Positions 13,812 to 24,877 of a stretch of DNA of 64,000 nt are shown here, piece after piece. Source of the stretch: Holophagae bacterium (lineage in GTDB: Bacteria; Acidobacteriota; Holophagae; Acanthopleuribacterales; Acanthopleuribacteraceae); contig JAJCXM010000008.1 in assembly GCA_029263455.1 (NCBI GenBank), positions 310,001 through 374,000 on the forward strand, given 5' to 3'. How positions within the stretch are numbered: position 1 is the first letter of the stretch; every line of letters begins with the position of its first letter. Made by a program: the position numbers and the translations under genes. The notes beneath the pieces are model-generated. The model was not told the DNA's origin. It did not search any database and worked only from the letters and a program-made list of their open reading frames with translations.

Positions 13812-16800
13812 ATGACGCAAGCAACCCAATCGAAGATGAAAGACCAAAAGCCAAGTAGTCCGGCCTTCAAACACAAGATTCGCTTTGTGACGGCAGCTTC
13901 GTTGTTTGATGGTCACGATGCATCGATCAACATTATGCGACGCATCTTGCAATCACTTGGTGCCGAAGTGATCCACTTAGGCCATAACCGTTCGGTTGGG
14001 GAAGTCGTGGATGCAGCTATCCATGAAGATGTCCAAGGCATTGCCATTAGCTCCTATCAAGGTGGCCATGTTGAGTACTTTAAGTACATGGTCGATTTGT
14101 TGAGACAACGCGGGTGTGGGCATATCAAAGTGTTTGGCGGTGGCGGCGGAGTTATCTCACCTCAGGAAATCGAGGAACTTGAGTCATATGGGGTCGCGAA
14201 AATATTCTCACCTGAAGATGGCGCTCAGCTCGGTTTGACCGGCATGATCCAAATGATGCTTGAATCATGCGATTTTTCTCCTATCGAGGTGGCGGGCTCG
14301 TCCGATGAGATCAAACAAAACCCTAACCGTATTGCTCGCCTAATAACGGAAATCGAGCTGGGCCTCAAGTCGGTGGAACCAAACCTGACGGGAACCCCGG
14401 TTTTGGGTATCACAGGCACAGGTGGCGCGGGAAAATCAAGTTTGACAGACGAGATCGTGCGTCGCTTCTTAACCCACTATCCCGACAAGAAGTTAGCCAT
14501 TATTTCGGTAGATCCGTCGAAACGGCGCACCGGTGGTGCCTTGTTGGGGGACCGCATCCGTATGAATGCGATCGCTTGGCCTGAGGCTGAAGGTCATCCA
14601 CGAATTTTTATGCGCTCGTTAGCGACTCGAAGTTCGAATCGTGCCACGAGCAAAGCGTTAACCGAGGTGATTGCGGCCGTAAAAGACGCAGATTTTGATC
14701 TGGTGATCGTGGAAACGGCCGGCATTGGTCAATCGGACTCGGAAATAGTCGATCTAGCAGATTTTTCGGTGTATGTCATGACTTCGGAGTATGGCGCTGC
14801 CACTCAACTCGAGAAAATTGACATGCTCGACCTAGCAGATATGGTGGTGCTCAATAAGTTTGAGAAACGGGGAGCTGAGGATGCCCTGCGCGACGTATGC
14901 AAACAGGTCAAGCGCAATCGCGGGTGGTTTGACCGTGCGGACGATGAGCTGCCCGTCTATCCGACCATTGCCTCGCAATTTAATGACAAAGGAACCAACC
15001 GCTTTTTTCGCGAATTGATTGGACAACTTAACCAAAGCTGTTCCCTCGATTGGCCATTGCCTGAGTACGCGCTAGCCGGTCGTCCAAATAAAGCGCCAAT
15101 CATTCCCGGTGAGCGTCAAAGGTATTTGGCCGAAATTTCGGATTGTGTTGAGCAACATGTAGATTTCGCCCGCTCGCAAGCGGCGATTGCGCGCACTTTG
15201 TATCAGTTACGCGGTTCAATTGACGCGCTTACTGGCCGTGCTCAAGAGAAACGCATACGCTTTAGTAGTGATGAGGGACAAGCTGAATTAGACTTGACCC
15301 CCAAAGATCACGCCCACGTGTGTGATGAATTGGAGCGTGAATTCAATCACATTGCTCGACTCCTCGATCCTGAATGTAAACAGTTACTTGAAGCATGGCC
15401 TGGCGCAAAAAAGGCTTATCAACAAGACGAATTGGTCACAAAAACTAGGGATCGCGAAATTCGCAATACGCTCTATACACAGTCCTTGTCAGGTACACGA
15501 ATTCCCAAAGTCGCGTTACCTGAATTTGCGGACTGGGGTGACCAGTTGTTTTGGTTACTGACCGAAAATGTACCGGGCGCTTTTCCGTTTGCGGCAGGTG
15601 TATTCCCCTTTAAGCGATCAGGTGAAGATCCAACCAGGATGTTTGCAGGCGAGGGAACACCTGAACGCACCAATCGGCGTTTCCACTACGTATCTCAGGG
15701 CCAGCCAGCTGCGAGGCTTTCGACGGCTTTTGATTCAGTGACGCTTTATGGGGAAGACCCAGATCGCCGTCCGGATATATACGGGAAGATCGGTAATTCT
15801 GGTGTGTCCATTTGCACCCTTGATGACATGAAGAAACTGTATAGCGGGTTCGACTTAGCGGCCGCGACCACCTCCGTCTCTATGACGATCAACGGACCTG
15901 CGCCCATCATCTTAGGCTTTTTCCTTAACACGGCGATTGATCAGCAAGTGGAACGATATCTAAGGGAACAGGGCAAATTGGAGCAAGTGCGCAAGTCTTT
16001 TGCGCTGAAGAACGGTCAAGACCGGGCTATGCCAGAATATTCGGGTATGTCGTTTGATGCCGCCGATGAACGTTCATTTGGTTTGGGTCTATTGGGTATG
16101 AATGGGATCGACGTGGTCGATGGTGAAACTTACGCGCGTATCAAAGCCGATACCCTAAATCGTGTCCGTGGAACCGTGCAAGCCGATATCTTAAAAGAAG
16201 ATCAAGCTCAAAACACGTGTATATTTTCAACGGAGTTTGCTTTGCGCATGATGGGTGATGTGCAGGAATACTTCACCCATAATAAGGTTAGGAATTATTA
16301 CAGCGTTTCCATTAGTGGCTATCACATCGCAGAGGCAGGAGCGAACCCCGTCACGCAAGCGGCACTTACTTTGGCGAATGGCTTCACCTATGTTGAATAC
16401 TATCTTTCTCGTGGGCTCAAAATCGATGATTTTGCGCCTAATCTTTCTTTTTTCTTTAGCAACGGCCTTGATCCAGAATATGCCGTAATTGGGCGCGTGG
16501 CTCGCCGAATTTGGGCCGTAACCATGAAGAAACGCTACGGCGCCAACGCTAGGAGCCAAAAACTCAAGTATCATATTCAGACATCTGGACGCTCGCTGCA
16601 TGCTCAGGAGATCGATTTCAACGATATCAGAACAACGCTGCAGGCGCTGTACGCGATCTACGACAATTGCAATTCACTTCATACCAACGCGTTTGATGAG
16701 GCAATTACAACACCCACCGAGGACAGCGTACGTCGCGCATTGGCGATTCAGCTCATTGTCAATCGCGAACTGGGTATGACCCAGAATGAGAACCCGTTAC

Positions 16801-17270
16801 AGGGCTCATTTATTATTCGCGAACTGTCGGATTTGCTTGAGTCAGCGATCCTTAGCGAGTTCCGCAGCATTTCTGAGCGTGGCGGCGTATTGTCAGCAAT
16901 GGAGTCCATGTATCAACGAGGAAAGATCCAAGACGAATCGATGCTTTATGAGACCCTTAAACATGAAGGCAAAATCCCGATTATTGGCGTCAATACATTC
17001 ATTAATCCACGGGCCTCCGATCGCTCCGAAAGCGCGTCCGAACTCATTCGCTCGACGACGGATGAAAAAGAGCAACAAATCCATAACCTTGAAGCCTATA
17101 AAGCTGTCAATGACACAAAGAGCCCTGCGCAGTTGCAGATCGTGAATAAGGCGGCCGAGCGTGGAGAAAACATCTTCGACGCATTAATGTCGGCCACGCA
17201 AGTATGCTCATTAGGTCAACTTTCTCGGGTGTTATACGCCGTTGGTGGTCAGTATCGACGTAGCATGTAA
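13812..17270 (+). CDS. icmF: Fused isobutyryl-CoA mutase IcmF
   Basis: This 1152-residue protein is an adenosylcobalamin enzyme that interconverts isobutyryl-CoA and n-butyryl-CoA. Three modules are visible. A B12-binding domain near residues 20-150 has [22 protein letters not shown] and FGGGGG. A MeaB-like G-protein chaperone at about 190-420 carries the P-loop GTGGAGKSS. The large mutase barrel fills the C-terminal half, with [19 protein letters not shown] and [10 protein letters not shown]. This order (B12, GTPase, mutase) defines IcmF and excludes methylmalonyl-CoA mutase. The gene stands alone in its transcription direction, with 84 bases upstream and no sign of a B12 riboswitch there. 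Confidence 0.95.
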
Positions 17271-17421: not shown

Positions 17422-18735
17422 ATGATCGAAGAAATGCCGAATATCGACCTGTCTGGCATCGAATCATTGCGAGACGTTCGAGACGAACAATCAACGTTGC
17501 ATGATCGCGTCGAAAAGATGGAAGCGAAAAAGGGGAAAGTTTCCAAGGCGGTTTTTCAGAAAGTCTTCTCAGACTATCAGACACGTTTACATGAGCTCGA
17601 AGAGATTGCTGCGCCGCTTAAGAATTCCGTTCGTGCCGAATACGCCAAGCTATCTGAACTCATTGAGTCGCTGACGGGTGCCATGGAGTCCGTGCAATTT
17701 GAAAAAGAGGAATTAGAGTTTCGTCATGAATTGGGTGAATATGAAGGCGACGATTTCTCTGAAGCGCATGCAGAGTGCGAGAAACGATTAACCGAGCGCC
17801 AAGCGGATTTAGACGAAGCGGACCAGTTAAAGGCCAAATTTCTTGAAGTTTTTGATTCAGAAGAAGACTTGAATGCTGGCTTTGAAGAGCCTGAGCCTGA
17901 GCCTGAGCCAGAACCTGAACCTGAACCAGAGCCAGAGCCGGAGCCAGAGCCTGAACCTGAGCCGGAGCCAGAACCGGAAGACGAGCTAGAAGACGAGCCG
18001 GAACCAGAGCCAGAACCAGAGCCAGAAGAAGCTCCTGAACTCGAGCCCGAACCGGAAGAAGAGTCGTTTGCGGTGCCACCTCCTCTGGAAAGCACGCCGG
18101 CGGCCAGTGATTATGAACTCGATGCGGAACCTGAGCGCGATTTTACGGAAGAGGATCTTGAGGACCTCGATGGCGAGGACGAAGGCATCGAAGAACTCGG
18201 CGAGGACGAACTCGTCGAAGAAGAGAGCGATGATGTCCCTATATCGCCGGACGATGAAACTATGGCTGGCGTGCCTGCTAGCTCATTTCTCAATGCCGAT
18301 GTGGGATCCGATACGATAGAACCTACGCCTCCTTTGCCGCCGCCGGTCCCTTCTTTGGGTGAACCTGCCACCATGAAACTGGACAAGTCACAATTTGATT
18401 GGAGTTCGCCGCCTGAAGATGAAGTCGATGGCACGATGATCATTACCAATCCAAAAATTGTTTCCATGGTGGATGGTAGGGAATCGCAAGTTTATGCGTT
18501 AGGCATGGGCACCACCTCCATTGGGCGTTCGCCTGACAACGATATTCATATTCCCGAAGAACGAGTTTCACGTAAGCACGCTCAAATTGCATTTGGGCCC
18601 GGCGGTTATGCGATATACGATCTCAACTCCGAGAATGGGACGTACGTGAATGGGAATCGAGTGCGGGAACATTTTCTGATGGATGGCGATGTTTTACTGA
18701 TTGGAACCAATCAGTTCACATACCGCGAAAGGTAG
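17422..18735 (+). CDS. FHA-domain protein with Glu-Pro repeat linker
   Basis: A 437-residue protein in three parts. Residues 1-150 are highly charged and helical, probably a coiled coil. Residues 156-202 are a tandem Glu-Pro tract, followed by an acidic, disordered stretch to about 290. The C-terminus from about 345 is an FHA domain, with [19 protein letters not shown] and [15 protein letters not shown] domains bind phosphothreonine, so the protein should be a scaffold for Ser/Thr kinase signalling; no such kinase is in the window. GAGGG precedes the ATG by about six bases. The stop codon lies nine bases before the inferred start of the UbiD gene, which suggests coupling. Confidence 0.9.
17887..18027 (+). 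repeat. Hexanucleotide tandem repeat coding for Glu-Pro
   Basis: GAR-CCN codon pairs repeat from 17887 to 17979 and again from 17995 to 18027, interrupted by an acidic DELEDE segment. Third-base variation (cct, cca, ccg; gag, gaa) shows that the array is not freshly expanded. The antisense frames of this tract give long serine-glycine open frames that are not genes. Confidence 0.85.
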
Positions 18736-18743
18736 GTCCATCC

Positions 18744-20510
18744 ATTCGCAACCTTCGTCTCTTTGTTGACGCATTAGAACGAGAAGGCGAACTCGTCGTC
18801 ATTGACGAAGCCTTAGATAGTAAATGGGTGATCCCTGAGATTCAACGACGAACGGTCGCCCAAAATGGACCAGCGCTGTTGTTCCGTAATGTCATAGGGT
18901 CATCTTTTCCCGTTGCCTGTAATCTGTTCGGATCTGCTAAGCGTTTGGAAATCGCCTTTTCAGGAAAACCGGAGCAATTCATTAGGAACCTGGTGAGCTT
19001 GGTCGAGACGATGCCTCCAAAACCAAGAGACCTTTGGCACAAACGTGGCTTTGTGAGAGATGCATTACGGATAGGGCTGAAAAAGAAGCGGCGTGGTCCG
19101 GTCAATGATCTAACTTTAGAAAACCTTGAGGCGCTTCCAGCGCTGACGTGTTGGCCAAAGGACGGCGGTCCCTTCATTACGCTACCGTTGGTTTATACCC
19201 AAGATCCATTAAGCGGCCAGGGAAATTTGGGCATGTATCGGATTCAGATTCAGGGACCGCGCCAAACAGGCATGCACATTCAAATCCATCGTGGTGGCGG
19301 AAATCACTATGCGAAGGCAGAATCGATGGGTCAAGGATTGCCGGCGGCCGTCTTTGTTGGTGGTCCTCCTGCATTGATTATTGCTGCAGTTGCTCCATTA
19401 CCTGAGGATGTACCAGAACTGGTGTTTGCTTCGATGTTGCAGGGTCAGAAATTAGATATGGTGCGCCCGCGTGGATCGATCAAGTTACCCTTGGTTGCAG
19501 AAGCTGATTTCTGCATTTACGGCACTATTCCGCCCACGAGACGGGAAGATGAGGGGCCATTTGGCGACCATTACGGTTACTACTCTCTGAAACACCCATT
19601 CCCGGTCCTGGAGGTTGAACATATATCGCATCGTAAGGATGCAATCTTTCCTGCCACCGTTGTGGGGAGACCGCCCCAGGAAGACCACTTCATCGCTATC
19701 TATTTGCAGGACCTTTTGCGACCGCTTTTCCCCTTGGTGCTCAAGGGAATCAAAGATGTTTTTGCTTTCGAAGAATCGGGCGTGCATTCGGCTGCAGCTG
19801 CCATTGTGCAAGAACGATATTATCGAGAGTCATTTACGGCTGTAATGCGTGTATTAGGGGAAGGCCAACTGTCATTGACCAAGGTCCTCTTCGCCACCGA
19901 TCAGGCGATCGATATACGCGACATCCGTGAGGTGATGACAACAGTACTCCAGCGCTGCCGATTTGAAAGCGATCTCTTTGTCTTTTCGAATATCTCGTTA
20001 GACACCTTGGACTACACGGGTCCCGAAATTAATCGCGGCTCCAAGGCCGTATTTTTAGGGACGGGCGAGATTAGATACGAATTGTGTCAGCATGTGCCCG
20101 AGCGCTTTGACTCGACTGATTTTGGAGAGGCCCATCTATTTGTGCCGGGCTGCCTAGTGGTCAAAGGGCCCGCTTACCAAAGAGCAGACGGCGTGCCACA
20201 AAGACTACTGGAAATGGAAGAAATACAGCCTTTTAGGCTTGTATTTCTGCATGACGATCCTGCTGATGCGGTGCACAGCGCCGCGTCCTTCTTGTGGCAT
20301 ATTTTCACCAGGTTTGAACCCGCCTCCGACATATACGCGCAGCAACGAATCGAGCGCAATCATATTGCCTATACGGCCCCATTAGTGATTGATTGCCGCA
20401 TGAAGCCTGGCTATCCGGATGTTTTGGAACCAGACCCGCAAACCGTGGCCACAGTCGATGCGCTTTGGGACGGATTGGGCATTGATGAATGGTGCACTCA
20501 ACACGCATGA
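18744..20510 (+). CDS. ubiD: UbiD-family decarboxylase, probable ATT start
   Basis: Prenylated-FMN-dependent decarboxylase of the UbiD family. Family landmarks are GPALLFRNV, GMHIQIHRGGG, VGGPPALI and the EGPFGDHYGYY catalytic region. The only canonical start in the frame is GTG 18828, but the 28 codons before it encode LRLFVDALEREGELVVID, which is the conserved UbiD N-terminus. No ATG, GTG or TTG lies between the frame's preceding stop at 18573 and 18828. ATT at 18744, six bases after AGGTAGGT (18730-18737), is therefore the best start. The protein would have 588 residues. It ends by overlapping lpxK at ATGATGA. No UbiX is in the window, and the substrate is unknown. Confidence 0.82.
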   Translation: MRNLRLFVDALEREGELVVIDEALDSKWVIPEIQRRTVAQNGPALLFRNVIGSSFPVACNLFGSAKRLEIAFSGKPEQFIRNLVSLVETMPPKPRDLWHKRGFVRDALRIGLKKKRRGPVNDLTLENLEALPALTCWPKDGGPFITLPLVYTQDPLSGQGNLGMYRIQIQGPRQTGMHIQIHRGGGNHYAKAESMGQGLPAAVFVGGPPALIIAAVAPLPEDVPELVFASMLQGQKLDMVRPRGSIKLPLVAEADFCIYGTIPPTRREDEGPFGDHYGYYSLKHPFPVLEVEHISHRKDAIFPATVVGRPPQEDHFIAIYLQDLLRPLFPLVLKGIKDVFAFEESGVHSAAAAIVQERYYRESFTAVMRVLGEGQLSLTKVLFATDQAIDIRDIREVMTTVLQRCRFESDLFVFSNISLDTLDYTGPEINRGSKAVFLGTGEIRYELCQHVPERFDSTDFGEAHLFVPGCLVVKGPAYQRADGVPQRLLEMEEIQPFRLVFLHDDPADAVHSAASFLWHIFTRFEPASDIYAQQRIERNHIAYTAPLVIDCRMKPGYPDVLEPDPQTVATVDALWDGLGIDEWCTQHA

Positions 20511-21547
20511 TGACTTGGCTCATGAGGGTCCTGTTGCCACTCACTTGGGTTTTTGCATGCGCCGTTGCCATACGTAATTGGCTATTTGATATAGGTTGGT
20601 GTAGGCAGCACAAATTGGACAAACCCGTTATATCGATAGGGAATTTGTCGATGGGCGGAACGGGCAAAACGCCTATTTCAATTGCACTCTTACAGTGGTT
20701 GGTTGACTCGGGTTTACGTCCAGCATTGCTCAGTAGGGGCTATGGCCGACGACAATCGCAGCGTTGCTTGATCGTCTCGCCGACTTCCGATTGGCGAGAT
20801 AGCGGCGATGAACCCCTCATGATTGCCAAACGTGTACCTCGGGCCTTAGTTATCGTGGGTCCAAGTCGTGCAAAGGCCGCAGCCTTAGCTCGATCTGAAC
20901 AGGTAGACGTATTTGTCCTTGATGACGGCTTCCAGCATCGACAACTCAAAAGGGACTTGGATGTGGTACTGCTTGATGTCACCCAAGAGCGACCGGTGCT
21001 GCCGCCGCTTGGCAAGTTCAGAGAAGGCTTTGAGGCACTCCGCCGCGCTGATGTCATTGTTTTGACGCGCAGCCATGACCTGGAAAAGACACAAGCGATG
21101 CAGCAGATGATCACCTCGAAATTTCCAGATTTACCCATCTTAAAGGTGAAATTTAGGTCGCAACACCCGTTATCGCTAGATGGTGTGCCCTTACAACTTG
21201 AGCCACGCTCAAAGGTGGCAGCTTATGCCGGTATCGCCTTTCCTGAAAAATTTTTTCGAGAAATAGGCCGATTAGGATTTGAACTAGTTGACCAACTCAG
21301 TTTGAGCGATCATGGTGTACTCGACAAGGGCAGGTTGAAGTCATTCTGGCAACATGCTCAGCGCGCGGACGCCTGCATCCTGTTGACAACCCACAAGGAT
21401 GCGGTGAAGCTTGAAACCCCGATGGATTCTGATATACTAATAGGCTTTCTGCCACTGGCTGCCCTTTGGGAAGATGAGTCCCGCGCACGCCAAGTCTTAC
21501 TCAAACAATCGAGGAAACCCATCACCCATGACCAAAAAGTTACTTGA
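20507..21547 (+). CDS. lpxK: Tetraacyldisaccharide 4'-kinase LpxK
   Basis: Inner-membrane kinase that phosphorylates the 4' position of the lipid A disaccharide precursor, the sixth step of the Raetz pathway. The start is a membrane segment (LMRVLLPLTWVFACAVA) followed by SIGNLSMGGTGKTP, the Walker A variant typical of LpxK, and DDGFQHRQLKRDLDVVLLD, the family signature. An ATG at 20489 is also in frame, but ATG 20507 overlaps the ubiD stop in the ATGA manner and gives the usual N-terminus. The 3' end overlaps the GreA-like gene by 20 bases. The neighbours are not other lipid A genes. Confidence 0.93.
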   Translation: MMTWLMRVLLPLTWVFACAVAIRNWLFDIGWCRQHKLDKPVISIGNLSMGGTGKTPISIALLQWLVDSGLRPALLSRGYGRRQSQRCLIVSPTSDWRDSGDEPLMIAKRVPRALVIVGPSRAKAAALARSEQVDVFVLDDGFQHRQLKRDLDVVLLDVTQERPVLPPLGKFREGFEALRRADVIVLTRSHDLEKTQAMQQMITSKFPDLPILKVKFRSQHPLSLDGVPLQLEPRSKVAAYAGIAFPEKFFREIGRLGFELVDQLSLSDHGVLDKGRLKSFWQHAQRADACILLTTHKDAVKLETPMDSDILIGFLPLAALWEDESRARQVLLKQSRKPITHDQKVT

Positions 21548-22007
21548 ACGGCTCACCGCAAGTTGCAGAGAAATGGAGCACGAGCTTAAAGCCGTGTTGC
21601 CCGATGAGATTGGCAAGGCAGCTGCGCTTGGTGATCTTTCTGAAAACGCTGAGTATGAAGCAGCCTTAGATCGACAGCGCTTACTACAGTCAAAACTGCG
21701 TCAACTAAAATCAAGAATATCGGATATTTCGGTCATCGACTTGCACCGCTTACCAGTAGACAAAATCGGCTATGGCTCCATTGTCACGATCTTTGACCTG
21801 GACAACGATAAGGAGATCACTTATCAATTGGTCCTGCCAGAAGATGCGGAAGCATCTCGGAACTGTATCTCGATAAGTTCGCCGATTGGCCGAGCGTTGG
21901 TTGGTCGAACCGAAGGCGACGAAGTGACTGTCCCAATCCCCAGTGGCATTAAGAACTTTGAAATTTTATCGATGACGCCTTACTCAAAAACTGAACAAAA
22001 CCTGTAA
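21528..22007 (+). CDS. GreA/GreB-family transcript cleavage factor
   Basis: Binds RNA polymerase through the secondary channel and stimulates cleavage of backtracked RNA. Residues from ATG 21528 begin a coiled-coil domain whose tip GDLSENAEYEAA carries the Asp and Glu that hold the catalytic magnesium. An FKBP-like C-terminal domain follows (YGSIVTIFDL, ISSPIGRALVGRTEGDEVTVPIPSG). The frame is open from 21474, but those 18 residues lie inside lpxK and do not fit the family. At 159 residues it has the normal length. It shares one base with the next gene in a TAATG junction, and so belongs to the ubiD-lpxK-greA-MTHFR run. Confidence 0.88.
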   Translation: MTKKLLERLTASCREMEHELKAVLPDEIGKAAALGDLSENAEYEAALDRQRLLQSKLRQLKSRISDISVIDLHRLPVDKIGYGSIVTIFDLDNDKEITYQLVLPEDAEASRNCISISSPIGRALVGRTEGDEVTVPIPSGIKNFEILSMTPYSKTEQNL

Positions 22008-23830
22008 TGCAGCGATCTGATCTAGATCTGCTCCTGCGACAGAAGGTTCAGGTAGTCGAGGGCAGTCTAGGTTCAGAACTGGCTCGAAGGCGAGCCTCAA
22101 GTGATGTTCTTTTGGCTCGTGTGCTATTGGAGTCGATGGATGCAGTGGGTGATATCCATCGTGACTTCGCCAATGCGGGCGCCACGCTCCACGTTTCAGG
22201 TAGTTCTGACTGCAACCGATTGGCGCTTAAGCGCGTAAAGTTGGCGGCCCAGTTCGCAGAGATCAATCAACGTTCTGTTTCAGTTTGTCGGGACGCGGTT
22301 GGCACCCACCATCTCGTATTTGGCGGACTTGGGAGCACGGGCGCATTGCTTAAGCCTTATGGACCGTTTGTTGAAAGTGACTATAGAGAGGTTTATGCGG
22401 AACAGGGTGAGATACTCTTGGACGCCGGTGTCGATGGCTTTTTTCTAGAAGGATTTAGCAGCTTAATCGAAGCAGAACAATGCTTGCTGGCTTTGCGCAA
22501 GTTGAGTTCTGTACCCGTCATTGCAACGATGACATTCTTGGAAGATGCCTGTACCAAGTTTGGCGATACCATGATCGACTGTTTTCGGTCACTTAAAGAT
22601 AAGGGCGCCGATGTGGTAGGTGTGCAGGGGACGTTGGGTCCGCTGGAAATAGATACCTTTTTACATCAACTGGATCGACCTTTCCCTCTCTGTGTACGGC
22701 CTAATGCTGGCTACCCAGTTCGGGTTGGCGGTGTCATGACCTATTTGTCGTCGCCCGAATATGTGGCGGAATTCGCCGATCACTTCTTACAGAAGGGCGC
22801 CGTGGTTATCGGCGGAGCGGCGGGATTTACGCCAGAACATATTGCAGCGGTCGCAAATCGGGTACGAGGCCGCAAGGTTCCTTCACTCAGTCCACAGCAT
22901 CGCGTCTCGTTCACGCAGACTGCTCAAGGATCAGATCAACGAGAAAAGAGCAAGAATACGTCGGAATTGAGTCAAAACCTTGGTCGCAAGCCGCTTTTGA
23001 CTGTGGAGTTGGAACCTCCTAGAGGCTTGGATGTGGCCGAGATCTTAACACTCATTAAACGTCTCATTCCGCTTGGTGTTGAGGCCGTCAATATTCCCGA
23101 GAATCCATTGGCTCGTGCACGTATTTCATCGATCGCTTTGGCGCGTGTGATACGCGATGAAACCGGGCTGGACTCGATTGCGCATGTAACTTGTCGTGAT
23201 CGCAACCTTATCAGCCTACAAGCCGAACTCTTGGGTGCTCATGTCTTAGGTGTGCATAACGTGCTTGCGTTGACCGGCGATCCGGCCGGTATCGGCGACT
23301 ATCCTGCGGCGACCTCAATCTTCGATCTTGATAGCCTTGGTCTAGTAGAAATGATGACACGCATGAACATGGGCAAAGATTTCGGCATGAATGAACTTGG
23401 TGATGCCACCCAATTTAATATCGGCGTCGTGTGTAATCCCTTAGCTGAGGACCTTGACGATGAGATCGCGCGACTTGAGCGTAAAGTCGCTCGCGGGGCT
23501 AGCTTTGTGCAAACGCAACCCATCTTTGACGTCCAAGCCGTGATGCCGTTTGTGCGCGCTTGTGAAGCTTTACAAGTTCCCGTCCTATTTGGAGTCATGC
23601 CTATTCGAGACTACCGTCATGCTCGATATTTGGTTAACGAGTATCCCGGGATCCTGGTTCCTGACGAAGATATGGAACGTTTCCGCACGACTTCTGAAAG
23701 CGCGCAGAAAAAGTTGAGCTTGGATTTTGCCAGGCGTCTGATTTCCGAATTGAAGCCCATTTCCGGAGGTGTCTATTTATTGCCGCCCTTTGGCTTGGGT
23801 GATCAATTAATTGAAATCCTGGAAATTTAG
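22007..23830 (+). CDS. Homocysteine methyltransferase-like/MTHFR fusion lacking zinc ligands
   Basis: Two-domain protein of 607 residues. Residues about 1-300 have the homocysteine S-methyltransferase barrel fold; residues about 315-607 are 5,10-methylenetetrahydrofolate reductase, with ELEPPRGLD, THVTCRDRN-like HVTCRDRN and LALTGDPAGIGDYP. The fusion resembles YitJ-type enzymes that make methyl-THF and pass the methyl group to homocysteine. However, all three zinc cysteines are gone: the usual GxNCxxGP reads GVQGTLGP and the usual GGCCGTTPEH reads GGAAGFTPEH. The reductase half looks intact; the first half probably cannot perform zinc-dependent methyl transfer. The start shares one base with the greA-like stop. 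Confidence 0.9.
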   Translation: MQRSDLDLLLRQKVQVVEGSLGSELARRRASSDVLLARVLLESMDAVGDIHRDFANAGATLHVSGSSDCNRLALKRVKLAAQFAEINQRSVSVCRDAVGTHHLVFGGLGSTGALLKPYGPFVESDYREVYAEQGEILLDAGVDGFFLEGFSSLIEAEQCLLALRKLSSVPVIATMTFLEDACTKFGDTMIDCFRSLKDKGADVVGVQGTLGPLEIDTFLHQLDRPFPLCVRPNAGYPVRVGGVMTYLSSPEYVAEFADHFLQKGAVVIGGAAGFTPEHIAAVANRVRGRKVPSLSPQHRVSFTQTAQGSDQREKSKNTSELSQNLGRKPLLTVELEPPRGLDVAEILTLIKRLIPLGVEAVNIPENPLARARISSIALARVIRDETGLDSIAHVTCRDRNLISLQAELLGAHVLGVHNVLALTGDPAGIGDYPAATSIFDLDSLGLVEMMTRMNMGKDFGMNELGDATQFNIGVVCNPLAEDLDDEIARLERKVARGASFVQTQPIFDVQAVMPFVRACEALQVPVLFGVMPIRDYRHARYLVNEYPGILVPDEDMERFRTTSESAQKKLSLDFARRLISELKPISGGVYLLPPFGLGDQLIEILEI

Positions 23831-23833
23831 GTT

Positions 23834-24877
23834 TTACGACAACAGAGCGTCAACAAATTGTTCGGCATCGAATGGCAACAAATCTTCCATTTTTTCGCCA
23901 ACCCCGACGAACTGGATGGGCAATTGCAACTCGTTAGCAATTGCCACGGCCACACCGCCTTTAGCGGTTCCGTCAAGTTTAGTGACGATAAGGTCACTGA
24001 CCCCAATTTTTTCAACGAACTGTTTGGCTTGATGTAATCCGTTTTGTCCTGTCACCGCATCAAGGATGAGGACAACATGGTGAGGTGCACCTGCGATTTC
24101 GCGTTCGGTAATACGACGAATCTTTGCTAATTCATTCATTAAATTTGGGTTGTTATGTAAGCGACCAGCTGTGTCTATCAGCAATATATCTGCGGACGCC
24201 TGTTTGACGGTGTTTAAAGCGTCAAAGACAACGGCAGCCGGATCATTGGAATCATCTTTCTTGACGAGGATTACGCCGGCGCGTTGAGCCCAAATCTCTA
24301 ATTGTTCCGTGGCCGCGGCTCGGAATGTATCTGCTGCGCACAACACAACCTTCTTGCCCTCGCTCGTGAATCGGTGGGCTAGCTTACCAATGGTGGTCGT
24401 TTTGCCAACGCCATTCACGCCTGTCACCAAGACGACCATAGGTTTATTTTCAAGCTGCCAGGGGCGAGCTTTGATGCTCGTTAGAATGCTTTGAAGTTCA
24501 TCATGGAGTAGTTCACGCAAAGCGGCAACATCTTGCAATCGTTGTTTCTTGGCCTGTTCGCGAATGCGATCCATCAGGGTCATCGTTGTTTGAACGCCTA
24601 AATCAGCGCCAATTAATAGCTCTTCTAATTCTTCTAGAACCGCGTCATCGATGTTTCGGCCGCCAACCAAGCTTTGAAGACGATCGCTTAGCTGTGTGCG
24701 CGTCTTTTTTAACCCTTCTTTTAGTTGGGTGAAAAAACGTCGTTTTGGCACATCGGCTTCAGGTTTTTCGACCGTATCATCTTGAATAAGCGGTGTTTCG
24801 GGCGTTTGCTCGACCGTTTCAGCTTGATCGGCTGTTTCGTTTTGACGCTTAAACAACTTCTTGGCTTTTTCAAACAT
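23834..24877 (-). CDS. ftsY: Signal recognition particle receptor FtsY
   Basis: GTPase that docks SRP-bound ribosomes at the inner membrane for co-translational insertion. The N-terminal 60 residues are charged (the A region). The NG domain carries the P-loop GVNGVGKTTT, DTFRAAATEQL, DTAGRLHNN and TKLDGTAKGG, the canonical G motifs of the SRP GTPase family. At 347 residues it is a normal length. It is the last gene of a minus-strand run that starts with the cyclase at 29485, five bases behind the Roadblock gene, and it ends three bases from the convergent MTHFR gene. Confidence 0.96.
   Translation of the reverse strand: MFEKAKKLFKRQNETADQAETVEQTPETPLIQDDTVEKPEADVPKRRFFTQLKEGLKKTRTQLSDRLQSLVGGRNIDDAVLEELEELLIGADLGVQTTMTLMDRIREQAKKQRLQDVAALRELLHDELQSILTSIKARPWQLENKPMVVLVTGVNGVGKTTTIGKLAHRFTSEGKKVVLCAADTFRAAATEQLEIWAQRAGVILVKKDDSNDPAAVVFDALNTVKQASADILLIDTAGRLHNNPNLMNELAKIRRITEREIAGAPHHVVLILDAVTGQNGLHQAKQFVEKIGVSDLIVTKLDGTAKGGVAVAIANELQLPIQFVGVGEKMEDLLPFDAEQFVDALLS

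Follow-up and report, generated by a model that had tools for sequence, protein, structure and literature searches.

A YitJ-type MTHFR fusion whose homocysteine methyltransferase barrel lacks the three zinc cysteines

The closest described relatives of the fusion reported here are the proteins of the YitJ type (NF006396), with which it shares domain order, length, profile score and MTHFR residues; unlike them, it has lost the zinc cysteines and the homocysteine-binding loops. The N-terminal barrel of MetE offers a second comparison. As presented in PMC539065, that barrel also descends from a zinc- and homocysteine-binding barrel, has both sites disabled and is retained as a partner, but it arose from a duplication inside MetE and partners its own sister barrel rather than an MTHFR. 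In the MesB-like proteins of the Chloroflexales, as far as the account in PMC7857596 goes, the zinc residues of the homocysteine barrel are not conserved either; these proteins are, however, MetE-related and in that account apparently carry no MTHFR fusion. Searches of the open-access literature listed none that deals with YitJ-type fusions lacking the zinc site. In MetH and BHMT, homocysteine is held by carboxylates that contact its amino group and by backbone amides after beta1 that contact its carboxyl group (PMC539065, section 13). Human MTHFR is inhibited by S-adenosylmethionine, as stated in PMC6414673.

The fusion gene and its altered sites

The gene lies in the window, i.e., the whole stretch of 64,000 nucleotides of Holophagae bacterium DNA that was analysed, and its features are listed in Table 1. 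In Pfam, PF02574 covers aa 16-286 (144 bits, against a cut-off of 22) and PF02219 covers aa 327-582 (107 bits). The NCBIfam model NF006396, named bifunctional homocysteine S-methyltransferase/MTHFR, matches with 540.8 bits, above its cut-off of 453, and six relatives that are likewise without zinc cysteines score 541-663 bits. The first half belongs to the PF02574 barrels by profile and fold, the second to the MTHFR family (PF02219) by profile and by the catalytic residues E334, D425 and Q504. An AlphaFold2 model of the fusion, built with 38 sequences, has a pLDDT of 87.9, with values below 50 in the linker (aa 296-315), and the arrangement of the two halves in it is uncertain because the pTM is 0.53. 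The best solved matches in Foldseek are the homocysteine-folate module of Thermotoga maritima MetH, BHMT, MmuM and MTHFR.

Table 1. Features of the fusion gene and its neighbours (nucleotide positions in the window; aa and codon numbers in the fusion)
Feature	Position in window	Strand	Position in fusion	Remark
lpxK	20489-21547			precedes greA
greA	21474-22007	+		ends on the first base of the fusion start codon
Fusion gene, barrel and MTHFR	22007-23830	+		ATG start, 607 aa
Barrel of the homocysteine methyltransferase type, without zinc cysteines			aa 10-290	
Last part of beta1 with the first residues of its loop	22052-22075	+	aa 16-23	VEGSLGS-type replaces (F/A)DGAMGT
First zinc cysteine position	22628-22630	+	codon 208	Gly
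Second and third zinc cysteine positions	22817-22822	+	codons 271-272	Ala-Ala
Linker			about aa 291-325	
MTHFR half	22982-23806	+	aa 326-600	
ftsY-like gene (name presumed from its sequence)	23834-24877	-		converges on the fusion in each of the four genomes carrying the window-type fusion

Orthologs of the fusion are present in three genomes of the same family as the window genome (G000), with 74 % (G001), 61 % (G004) and 58 % (G003) identity. In these four genomes, whose fusions are called window type below, the gene order lpxK-greA-fusion-ftsY is kept, with an extra predicted frame in between in G003. In G002, G005 and G006, greA is present and the fusion is absent from that place, and a tblastn search of those stretches found no remnant of it. 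A sequencing error or pseudogene was considered and rejected, as the three orthologs share the zinc loss. An Rfam search of the window gave no matches. The window also encodes an FHA-domain protein with a long Glu-Pro repeat run (17422-18735, + strand), with a relative in the corresponding position of related genomes, and IcmF, the fused isobutyryl-CoA mutase (13812-17270, + strand; 1739.6 bits), a second B12-dependent enzyme type near the fusion.

The original prediction, made from the sequence of the locus, held that the barrel half has lost all three of its zinc cysteines. This is indeed the case: G208, A271 and A272 stand in the columns where NF006396 members carry the three cysteines of their methyltransferase half. 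The motifs that it named were read in the translation: the barrel has GVQGTLGP and GGAAGFTPEH, the MTHFR half HVTCRDRN and LALTGDPAGIGDYP. The alignment to MetH that it had proposed agrees, since phmmer places G208 opposite C207 of T. maritima MetH (1q7m) and GGAAG opposite GGCCG. The zinc columns are lost in all four window-type fusions. It could be argued that the protein still holds zinc or another metal through C94, C159, C192 and C229 or through other residues, as the four window-type proteins all have these cysteines, which are almost absent from zinc-intact fusions (0, 1, 2 and 8 of 88, respectively). Yet three of them lie in helices (alpha2, alpha4 and alpha5) and the fourth in beta7, outside the beta6 and beta8 loops (DSSP of the model), and two of the four replace alanine, a change to cysteine that is common in packed helices. 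Metal binding of this kind is very improbable.

The amino-acid pocket is changed as well. The residue numbers given for the pocket in the fusion family (D18, T64-N65, E148) are our own reading of the alignment. All 115 zinc-intact fusions have D at position 18, where the four window-type proteins read E/E/S/E; in the latter, position 148 likewise reads E/E/S/E, T64-N65 is not kept (position 65 being G/A/G/A), N207 is replaced by Q/Q/H/Q, and G22 and T23 are not kept. The acidic residues and the beta1-alpha1 loop that serve the amino-acid part of homocysteine in NF006396 members are not found in that form. With neither the zinc cysteines nor the homocysteine-binding loops left, the NF006396 name seems doubtful for the first half of the protein. 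Some binding of an amino acid by the window-type barrel may persist, as positions 18 and 148 are E in three of the four members.

The MTHFR half is well kept, as had been predicted, and its catalytic residues are retained in all four window-type proteins. Kept throughout are E334, H393, R397, D398, N400, T423-P426, K493 and T503-P505, among which E334, H393, D425, K493 and Q504 lie opposite E28, H88, D120, K172 and Q183 of E. coli MetF. In the latter, E28, D120 and Q183 are catalytic residues.

Zinc-poor fusions in other genomes

The survey of relatives covered 141 full-length fusions (114 plus 27 from a search of the phylum), of which 115 have all three zinc cysteines (CCC), four are of the window type (GAA in three, GAS in one) and 22 are of a second, Holophagaceae type (GCS in 14, GCA in seven, GDA in one). 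The 22 comprise 21 fusions of Holophagaceae and L063, which is labelled as coming from a Proteobacteria bacterium. A further 40 fusions of the Holophagaceae (f2), chosen as previously unread, are all zinc-poor (33 GCS, four GCA, two ECA and one DSA); unread matches in f2 include those in G075, G081, G084 and G088. In all, 62 of 62 fusions in the second clade, 61 of them from Holophagaceae, are without at least two zinc cysteines. The counts leave out identical proteins and matches that do not span both halves (e.g., those in G012, G024, G062 and G066 and a split pair in G010), and the cysteines are intact in G012, G024 and the G010 pair. Since CCC is found in 115 of the 141 fusions and the rest fall into two types, the absence of the zinc site is, judged by these sequences, not a matter of chance or ordinary variability.

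The phylum search covered 396 genomes and found no further window-type fusion among the matches listed. The best listed match beyond G000 and G001 has 41 % identity, in a sample without G003 and G004, and the 27 new loci are all zinc-intact. One fusion, L043 (G093:C2:165415-167178), is a mirror case, with three zinc cysteines and an altered MTHFR half (PSDP for TGDP, TPP for TQP). The split pair in G010 (L038, G010:C1:614956-616766) is made up of two adjacent frames, 330 and 314 aa long.

A tree of 37 rows, from which the zinc columns were excluded, needs two changes at the zinc site. In this tree the window clade sits on a long branch and is grouped with the zinc-intact L007 (100/99). The f2 fusions form one clade with the Holophagaceae bacterium fusions L087 and L097. 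One loss shared with the Holophagaceae was rejected: a tree constrained to unite both groups is worse by 128 log units (p-AU 1.2e-165), in a test that has long branches in play and shares the model's pull between them. On this phylogeny, the zinc site was lost twice, independently.

The Holophagaceae fusions resemble the window type in having a fused MTHFR and in having lost zinc cysteines, but differ in the independence of the loss, in mostly keeping cysteine 271, in keeping D18, N65 and E148 (22/22 and 40/40), in being the sole MTHFR in most genomes and in adjoining metH. Among 45 f2 genomes, 40 have exactly one PF02219 protein, which is the fusion, three have none, and G044 and G047 have more; G047 has a more distant fusion, L045, in which the three cysteines are present. 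In all 40 single-MTHFR genomes the fusion is without at least two zinc cysteines, the zinc state of G048 being read via the identical or near-identical L087. In 39 of these 40, a MetH barrel match follows 11-1073 bases downstream on the same strand, and in G042 it lies on a different contig from the fusion. None of the 22 neighbouring MetH proteins that were aligned lacks a zinc cysteine, and homocysteine methylation is presumably supplied by this neighbour. E334, H393, D425 and Q504 of the MTHFR half are kept in all 40 further f2 fusions. Because these catalytic residues and D18, N65 and E148 are retained, the MTHFR half of the Holophagaceae fusions presumably works and their barrel may retain amino-acid binding in the absence of zinc. 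In genus g14 the first zinc position is occupied by an acidic residue, in L198 (G042) and L224 (G071), both ECA, and in L231 (G090), DSA.

Constraint on the window-type barrel

The earlier statement that the frame is not simply decaying holds: the loss is common to three orthologs and aa 105-290 are strongly constrained, as expected of a frame kept under selection. Between the window and G001, where synonymous sites are saturated and dN/dS is not usable, pN is lowest in aa 105-290 (0.082), compared with 0.184 in the MTHFR half and 0.225 in aa 1-104. Residues 105-290 are the best-conserved part of the fusion in this comparison, under a constraint at least as strong as that on the MTHFR half.

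The four window-type proteins were also compared with 150 quartets of zinc-intact fusions matched for MTHFR identity, using the share of invariant positions. This share is 0.33 in the beta1-alpha1 loop, against 0.66 in the matched quartets, and 0.27 in the beta2-alpha2 loop, against 0.57, with no quartet as low in either loop. It is 0.69 in the beta5-alpha5 loop, against 0.27, and 1.00 in the beta6-alpha6 loop, against 0.51, with no quartet as high, while the MTHFR halves are alike (0.54 and 0.52); since the quartets are phylogenetically linked and one clade of four was tested, these fractions are not probabilities. As the four window-type sequences found share one ancestor, the test counts as one independent case. 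Constraint on the barrel looks changed rather than lost.

The original prediction saw in the barrel either a structural or regulatory partner of the reductase or a zinc-free enzyme for another methyl acceptor. It is partly supported, and the analysis adds to it the changed amino-acid pocket and a loss that is clade-wide and occurred twice. The pattern of constraint bears on two other accounts of the barrel. In one of them the barrel is a relic with a structural task only, stabilising the MTHFR half or making it dimerise, which agrees with the fold and core being kept in the AlphaFold2 model. A relic should not, however, show mouth loops under tighter constraint than in zinc-intact relatives, and the relaxed beta1-beta2 loops together with the tighter beta5-beta7 mouth argue against a purely passive structural role, so that this account is decidedly unlikely. 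In the other, the barrel is a zinc-free enzyme that acts on another methyl acceptor, or catalyses another reaction, linked to the attached MTHFR. The beta5-beta7 mouth loops, more conserved than in matched zinc-intact fusions, fit such an enzyme, as does the invariance or near-invariance of GTLGPLEI, LCVRPNAGYPV and GGA(A/S)GFTP in the window type, and non-metal relatives of the fold exist, e.g., uroporphyrinogen decarboxylase (PMC539065, section 13). Yet there is no candidate methyl acceptor, and the beta1-beta2 side, which seats the amino acid in MetH and BHMT, is the relaxed one; an enzyme of this kind is considered unlikely, if somewhat less so than a relic.

Other one-carbon proteins and the possible role of the barrel

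The window genome (6.2 Mb in 40 contigs) has a separate MetH, such as the original prediction had suggested looking for in relatives, and this MetH is zinc-intact (GLNC and GGCC). It also has a stand-alone MetF of 286 aa, whereas a search for the MetE family (PF01717) gave no hit. A search for the GcvT family, as a possible methyl-donor enzyme, returned one GcvT and one weak match. That the fusion is the sole MTHFR or methionine synthase of the window genome was rejected, given MetH and MetF. All four window-type genomes encode a MetH-sized PF02574 protein and another MTHFR, which is MetF in G000 and G001 and a zinc-intact fusion in G003 and G004.

A divergent MTHFR-like protein was found in these four genomes only; in G000 it has 376 aa (G000:C38:305626-306753; L049:1108-2235, + strand), with the motifs EFNPP, HLTR, TGDP and VTQP, in which PF02219 covers positions 73-209 only (33.7 bits). 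In 100 relatives, other matches to it were short and weak and lay inside fusion-sized frames. Among 297 phylum genomes it was found at E <= 1e-20 only in G000 and G001, G003-G006 possibly being outside that sample. In a tree of five shared proteins, G003 groups with G005 and G006 (100/100), so that the simplest account is a joint loss of the fusion and the divergent protein on the branch leading to G005 and G006, the sister genus of G003; this is one event, and for a link between the two proteins it is suggestive only. It is tentatively proposed, as a doubtful possibility, that the barrel has been neofunctionalised, with a new ligand or substrate at its beta5-beta7 mouth, and works with the divergent protein in a small unrecognised one-carbon module beside the MetF-MetH pathway.

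On balance, the fusion is probably an MTHFR with its catalytic residues joined to a selected barrel that is not a zinc-dependent homocysteine methyltransferase and most likely has a ligand-binding or regulatory role. In the course of events that this suggests, the zinc site and the loops for homocysteine would have disappeared from a bifunctional fusion copy in some ancestor within the family of the window. The present protein would pair an MTHFR domain that keeps its catalytic residues with a barrel that is folded and under strong selection, and methionine synthesis would be carried by other proteins, namely MetH with MetF or with a zinc-intact fusion. The barrel would then serve the attached reductase as a ligand-binding or regulatory partner through the beta4-beta8 side of its mouth. 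The sequences show the loss itself, its two independent occurrences, the pattern of conservation and the accompanying genes; an active MTHFR, the absence of homocysteine methylation and a regulatory or ligand role of the barrel are what we infer.

Fusions in which an MTHFR is joined to what was once a homocysteine methyltransferase barrel have arisen at least twice. Given two independent losses, the automatic name 'bifunctional homocysteine S-methyltransferase/MTHFR' overstates function across whole families. A further suggestion from the two losses is that a barrel which binds an amino acid and is joined to MTHFR can be reused as a sensor or partner. In human MTHFR, inhibition by S-adenosylmethionine acts through the enzyme's own regulatory domain, and a homocysteine barrel that has lost its zinc site could be the counterpart in bacteria.
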